Positions 16,765 to 18,161 of a stretch of 37,726 nt of DNA are shown here, one piece after another. The notes under the pieces were generated by a model that had not been told where the DNA came from, searched no databases, and saw only the letters and a program-made list of their open reading frames with translations. This DNA comes from an uncultured Granulicella sp. Lineage in GTDB: Bacteria > Acidobacteriota > Terriglobia > Terriglobales > Acidobacteriaceae. Made by a program: the position numbers and the translations under genes. The DNA lies in NCBI GenBank assembly GCA_937873265.1, contig CALMVL010000117.1, forward strand, positions 13,820-51,545, written 5' to 3'. Positions within the stretch are counted from its first letter, which is position 1. Each line of letters starts with the position of its first letter.

Positions 16765-18161
<1,397 letters not shown>

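Follow-up and report, generated by a model that had tools for sequence, protein, structure and literature searches.

Repeated loss of the GAFTGA loop in NtrX-like response regulators of one Acidobacteriota class, with conserved phosphorylation and ATPase residues

NtrC-family proteins that lack the GAFTGA loop and act at sigma-70 promoters, which the original prediction for the locus described here had invoked, are indeed documented in the portions of the literature consulted (PMC10274813, PMC3162934). In Caulobacter, NtrC is without GAFTGA and regulates sigma-70 promoters, and growth on ammonium depends on its conserved AAA+ residues; by implication of the same text, Caulobacter NtrX lacks the motif as well (PMC10274813). 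NtrX of S. meliloti is reported to bind promoters of cell-cycle genes, to need the phosphorylated aspartate, and to lower the expression of ctrA and ntrY (PMC9223101). The likeness of this protein to the window protein concerns its promoter action. Among other bEBPs, TyrR, DhaR, and HupR have been termed sigma-70-dependent, and VpsR is considered to be probably no sigma-54 activator (PMC3162934). The same survey described about 110 homologues of bEBPs whose motif deviates, among which replacement of the Thr at position 4 by Pro was frequent (Francke 2011, PMC3162934). NtrYX systems are known to occur in Acidobacteria, in a report whose consulted sections do not mention the loop (PMC9409073).

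The window, by which we mean the whole stretch of 37,726 nucleotides that was analyzed, comes from an uncultured Granulicella sp. with a 3.6-Mb draft genome (343 contigs, 73% complete). It contains an ntrX-like gene (Table 1). Pfam recognized Response_reg, Sigma54_activat (PF00158, 207.6 bits), an AAA lid, and HTH_8 in the 466-residue product, which thus combines a receiver, an AAA+, and a Fis-type helix-turn-helix domain in one chain, as an NtrX response regulator should. The gene directly upstream encodes an NtrY-type kinase, also as expected for NtrX; its NtrY_N match (19.2 bits) is under the cut-off of 23.2. A kinase match adjoins ntrX in most relatives. The best NCBIfam match of the window protein, at the top of 116 families matched, was NtrX (NF051870, 482.9 bits; NtrC 389), although this score falls below the curated equivalog cut-off of 600 bits. 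The codons from 17520 to 17503 translate to GASPSG, followed by NGGPPE, just as had been read from the sequence originally. This sequence fails the published rule for GAFTGA (PMC3162934). In the alignment, the window loop has a length of 27, compared with the canonical 24.

Table 1. Features of the ntrX-like gene and its upstream neighbors, in coordinates of the window.
Feature	Position	Strand	Evidence
ntrX-like response regulator gene, 466 aa, REC + AAA+ + Fis-type HTH	16765..18165	-	ORF list, translation, Pfam, NCBIfam
GASPSG in place of GAFTGA, residues 216-221, then NGGPPE	17503..17520	-	translation, alignment
Whole altered L1 segment GASPSGNGGPPE; loop 3 residues longer than canonical	17485..17520	-	alignment
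Asp52, presumed site of phosphorylation in the receiver	18010..18012	-	identical in 143/143 distinct sequences
Walker A GESGTGKE, residues 169-176	17638..17661	-	translation, conservation
Walker B LDEVGDM, residues 242-248	17422..17442	-	translation, conservation
Arginine-finger segment (presumed) FREDLFYRL, residues 297-305	17251..17277	-	R298 and R304 identical in 143/143 distinct sequences
Fis-type helix-turn-helix HTH_8, residues 421-459	16789..16905	-	Pfam PF02954, 40.7 bits
NtrY-like sensor histidine kinase, overlaps ntrX by 4 bases	18162..20687	-	HAMP, HisKA, HATPase_c (Pfam)
Alanine dehydrogenase (ald), upstream neighbor	20757..21869	-	Pfam
TACAAT ahead of ald, weak candidate for a sigma-70 -10 element	21876..21881	-	very close to assumed start codon; pattern match only

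The nearest named relatives include Granulicella and Edaphobacter, with 80-83% identity. Because two Granulicella MAGs with 82 and 83% identity carry the same kind of loop (GAVPAG.. in L010 and GASPAG.. in L012), the window loop does not represent an assembly error. A predicted model of the protein had a pLDDT of 79.4 and a pTM of 0.55, with values below 50 in the loop (residues 217-220) and in the linkers (residues 138-145 and 390-413). Among solved structures, those of Brucella NtrX (5m7n/5m7o) came closest in both sequence and fold, with a full-length TM of only about 0.43; in the alignment with the window protein, Brucella NtrX has a gap at the loop.

For a comparison across the phylum, 230 NtrX rows from Acidobacteriota were aligned, 223 of them different (some genomes occur twice, in a named and an unnamed collection). 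The rows were made up of the window protein, 80 named loci, 29 rows from a phylum search, 40 further rows, and 80 rows taken from elsewhere in the class, in other family groups. The window's clade accounted for 81 rows and 76 distinct sequences. All of these rows but one (L061, GAFPGA) had lost the Phe of the loop. With an entropy of 2.88 in the 76 distinct sequences, its position ranked second in variability among 248 positions of the AAA+ domain; outside the class, the entropy was 0.30. The loop length was other than 24 in 27 of the 76 sequences and canonical in the remaining 49, while residues 145-212 and 239-375 showed no length change in any of them. The loop is nevertheless not random, since position 4 was Pro in 61 of the 76 sequences and a following Gly-Gly-Pro was common. 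The motif GxxPSGxGGPPE, whose conservation had been proposed as a check, does not hold as a whole: the Pro and the Gly-Gly-Pro recur, but the Phe position varies freely.

Twelve other residues (D52, K104, G169, G172, G174, K175, D243, E244, N285, R298, R304, and R362) were invariant across all 143 distinct sequences among the first 150 of the 230 rows. We take Asp52 to be the site of phosphorylation, the three Gly and Lys175 to belong to Walker A, and Asp243 and Glu244 to Walker B; Lys104, Asn285, Arg298, Arg304, and Arg362 complete the set, and the segment FREDLFYRL, with R298 and R304, is presumably the arginine finger. Because loop sequence and loop length vary while the phosphorylation and ATPase residues and the flanks stay fixed, the sequence data indicate that the loss of the loop is targeted and that the motor and the phospho-switch are under strong selection. 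The conservation counts across relatives thus agree with the original prediction of a targeted change in an otherwise intact protein, rather than decay.

The loops were then sorted by the rule of Francke 2011, in the form given in the consulted part of that paper (PMC3162934): the Phe at position 3 may be only F or Y, and the Thr at position 4 only T, S, E, or D. Six rows were sorted by eye from the sequence (L128, L130, L139, and L154 as accepted, L178 and L220 as lost). Altogether, 136 of the 230 rows failed the rule and 94 passed. Outside the class, all 37 rows passed (26 GAFTGA, 5 GSFTGA, 2 GAYTGA, 2 GAFSGA, 1 GAFTNA, and 1 GGFTGS); these rows are among the best-scoring matches listed, from 37 of 264 same-phylum genomes, and lean towards query-like sequences. 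The clade of the window's family comprises 111 rows, namely the f1 rows and those named loci that were placed among them solely by the tree; in a 150-row tree it had a support of 100. Of its rows, 109 failed, and the two passing rows were both GSFSGA. The commonest failing form was the change from Thr to Pro, in 86 of the 109. Two records with NtrX inside the window's clade, L018 and L029, are titled Rhodanobacteraceae and Verrucomicrobia and are probably mislabeled bins.

Same-class genomes outside the window's family were covered to the extent of 82 of 122, and failing rows occurred in five family groups besides the window's own. In f2, 22 of 27 rows failed in various forms (GSFAGA, GSFPGA, GSLPGA, GAAPGV, RGLPPP, and others), and here Ala at the Thr position (10 of 22) was commoner than Pro (8 of 22). 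The other groups were f81 (1 of 1), f90 (1 of 1), f85 (2 of 7), and f82 (1 of 9). The failing f82 row, L161, has a plain deletion of the loop (LFGDAKESRKGKF), and extreme forms were seen in f2 (RGLPPP and AAHDGG in L190 and L215). Failing rows were absent from f83 (10 rows), f84 (16), f86 (7), f87 (2), f88 (1), and f89 (1). In many deeper rows, only the Thr was replaced (GSFPGA, GSFAGA); according to the published classification, such loops would be inactive.

Trees were built without the loop columns, with FastTree for 230 rows and with a quick IQ-TREE search for 115 rows, and without bootstrap; many forks are open, and the chosen outgroup does not form one clade. They required 11 and 10 changes between pass and fail, respectively, and at least 8 such changes were forced by well-supported branches. 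These are changes of state that may include regains, and the counting of GSFSGA (for example in L068) as accepted adds apparent regains. The results are best read as an ancestral GSFTGA or GAFTGA loop at the start of the class, followed by several losses, since most family groups keep one of these two forms; the direction of change would follow from the accepted loop in the outgroup. A first tree of 150 rows had pointed to just one loss, at the root of the class, but the 80 sequences added from other family groups ruled this out. Alignment and trees together indicate that many relatives within the class are without the loop, some of them through independent loss.

The genomes have retained sigma-54. 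Its DNA-binding domain was detected in 58 out of 60 genomes from the family and in all 47 good genomes, and the window's own genome has a sigma-54 frame of 595 aa that ends in what we take to be an RpoN-box-like stretch. DNA coding for GAFTGA or GSFTGA was present in 60 of 60 family genomes, with 5 occurrences in the window's own genome versus 0 in a reversed control; the count was above the control in most genomes and equal to it in at least two (4 and 4 in G305, 1 and 1 in G312). Besides four weaker bEBP matches, the window's genome has seven other strong ones, in which the motif was read. Six of the seven carry GAFTGA, GSFTGA, or GAFTSA, and for this reason the contact with sigma-54 is probably unchanged in this genome. 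The suggestion that the phylum as a whole uses a different contact sequence finds no support in these six proteins, nor in the accepted loops in 37 of 37 NtrX rows outside the class (among the best-scoring matches listed). The seventh match, L008 (contig C180, 27045-27542, minus strand), is bEBP-like and lies near a contig end; the GAFTGA loop is missing from it (HGPEEGDGAWEGDG), and its sensor I region is altered as well. A consensus scan of the window for sigma-54 promoters gave 13 matches, compared with 15.2 expected.

The analysis shows the loss of the loop, its spread and recurrence, strictly conserved residues for phosphorylation and ATPase function, and the persistence of sigma-54 and of GAFTGA-bearing activators. 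The reading that we favor, at a probability of roughly three in four, is that this NtrX, while still phosphorylated, using ATP, and binding DNA, has given up sigma-54 and acts on ordinary (sigma-70-type) promoters. NtrY would phosphorylate Asp52, and the receiver together with ATP, either hydrolyzed or merely bound, would drive oligomerization of the AAA+ domain. The Fis-type helix-turn-helix would bind DNA at putative targets, and the window NtrX would activate or repress promoters there, presumably of the sigma-70 type. Ordinary promoters are proposed because the L1 loop should no longer be able to engage the N-terminal region of sigma-54. Sigma-54 independence of the window protein is suggested by its altered loop, and by analogy with the described systems, regulation of sigma-70-type promoters is the most likely activity of the Acidobacteriota protein.

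An alternative that we consider unlikely is that the protein continues to act on sigma-54, making contact in another way or joining GAFTGA-bearing bEBPs in mixed rings. Absence of the motif is by itself no proof of sigma-54 independence, because HTH-mutant alleles of Caulobacter NtrC affected sigma-54 genes and raised sigma-54-dependent transcripts despite the missing GAFTGA, according to the consulted part of the report (PMC12421884). The canonical loop length in 49 of 76 distinct clade sequences, the common Pro-Gly-Gly-Pro stretch, and the retention of all checked ATPase residues would also fit, and the Pro at position 4 (61 of 76) with the Gly-Gly-Pro could reflect a retained contact instead of a free loop, which would speak against release from sigma-54. 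However, few positions of the domain vary as freely as the Phe position, the loop both gains and loses residues, an accepted motif is kept by six of the seven other strong bEBPs in the genome, and changes of this kind are classed as inactive by the published rule (PMC3162934). It is quite improbable that the protein acts as a repressor or competitor alone, occupying enhancers or promoters of other regulators and blocking them without ever activating. Repression by relatives, which also activate, points in this direction: NtrX lowers ctrA and ntrY expression in S. meliloti (PMC9223101), and Caulobacter NtrC both represses and activates (PMC10274813, PMC12421884, in the parts consulted). The full conservation of the ATP-hydrolysis residues, however, exceeds what a pure DNA-blocker should need. 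A local mutation or sequencing error, which had been named as fatal to the original prediction, or a decaying gene is highly improbable, and decay and sequencing error were ruled out by comparison with the 80 named relatives: the incompleteness of the draft assembly (73%, 343 contigs) is the sole point for it, and against it stand like loops across the clade in independent genomes, the open frame, and the kept catalytic residues.

In the gene neighborhood, among loci with room for it, ald is found 2.4 to 4.7 kb upstream of ntrX, in the same orientation, at 36 of the 49 loci from the window's clade, and upstream at 1 of 18 deeper loci. Loci whose ntrX begins before base 5400 do not enter this count; one of them, the deeper L065, has ald upstream. 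Linkage of ald and ntrYX roughly tracks the clade where the loop Phe was lost. Judged from gene position alone, it suggests a tie to alanine or ammonia metabolism. Of 35 regions upstream of ald, 11 contained an exact TACAAT, and an alignment of 15 upstream sequences (the window and 14 relatives) showed little conservation besides a TACAAT-like element. The best palindrome occurred in 3 of 35 ald upstream regions, versus 1 in shuffles. The alphaproteobacterial NtrX site CAAN2-5TTG matched 7 of 36 regions, against a shuffled mean of 6.0, and the alphaproteobacterial GCAN9TGC matched 6 of 36, against 2.4 in shuffled sequences (7 of 200 shuffles were as high), with no common position, so that it does not qualify as a site. 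These searches brought out no NtrX site shared by the ald upstream regions, which counts against the favored reading. Elsewhere in the window, between phoH and a MATE transporter, two long minus-strand ORFs of 549 and 1073 aa (28001-29650 and 29698-32919) had no Pfam match at 1e-5; overlapping plus-strand ORFs make the coding strand ambiguous.

For most of the window's family, annotation of such genes as sigma-54-dependent regulators would probably be mistaken. A wider reading, tentative and on balance doubtful, is that NtrX was freed from sigma-54 several times in one class, often by a Thr-to-Pro or Thr-to-Ala change, and that its ATP-hydrolyzing machine was kept and works on a non-sigma-54 target. 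Since the full machine is kept, the motor would, on this wider reading, do useful work on something besides sigma-54; remodeling of sigma-70 polymerase or of another regulator, for example, would be a new use of the bEBP ring. Within one class and one regulator, and with sigma-54 present, the loops form a natural series that runs from GSFTGA through GSFPGA or GSFAGA to complete replacement. This series lets one study the order of steps by which a sigma-54 activator changes its polymerase, and why the ATPase stays fully constrained.

Brucella NtrX (PDB 5m7n/5m7o/5m7p) resembles the window protein in its REC-AAA+-HTH architecture, its Walker motifs, and the absence of GAFTGA. Its loop, however, is 7 residues shorter than that of the window protein in the alignment: the Brucella loop is shorter, whereas in the window's clade the length is mostly kept and the sequence is replaced and variable. 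The loss in Acidobacteriota looks separate from the alphaproteobacterial one, because 37 of 37 NtrX rows outside the class, among the best-scoring matches listed, keep an accepted loop. Caulobacter and Rhodobacter capsulatus NtrC share the loss of the loop with the window protein, and sigma-70 promoters have been reported for them, but they are NtrC rather than NtrX and carry deletions of eight or more residues instead of a substitution; for the R. capsulatus protein, ATP binding rather than hydrolysis was reported to be essential. TyrR, DhaR, HupR, and VpsR have a deviant GAFTGA like the window protein and belong to other branches of the bEBP family. Among the deviant bEBPs of Francke 2011, Thr-to-Pro is frequent, as in the clade of the window's family; f2 differs in that Ala is commoner.

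The main text of that survey, in the part consulted, mentions neither Acidobact, Koribacter, Solibacter, nor NtrX, and gives its Pro group no stated taxon (PMC3162934); some Acidobacteriota NtrX may be in the deviant list of its supplement. Open-access searches linking GAFTGA with Acidobacter retrieved nothing, and for Acidobacteri with NtrX and NtrY, titles and the starts of abstracts apparently held nothing on the loop besides PMC9409073. Loop-less NtrX was known already from alphaproteobacteria. Repeated loss of the loop inside one class, with intermediate states visible, seems to be new within the open-access literature searched.
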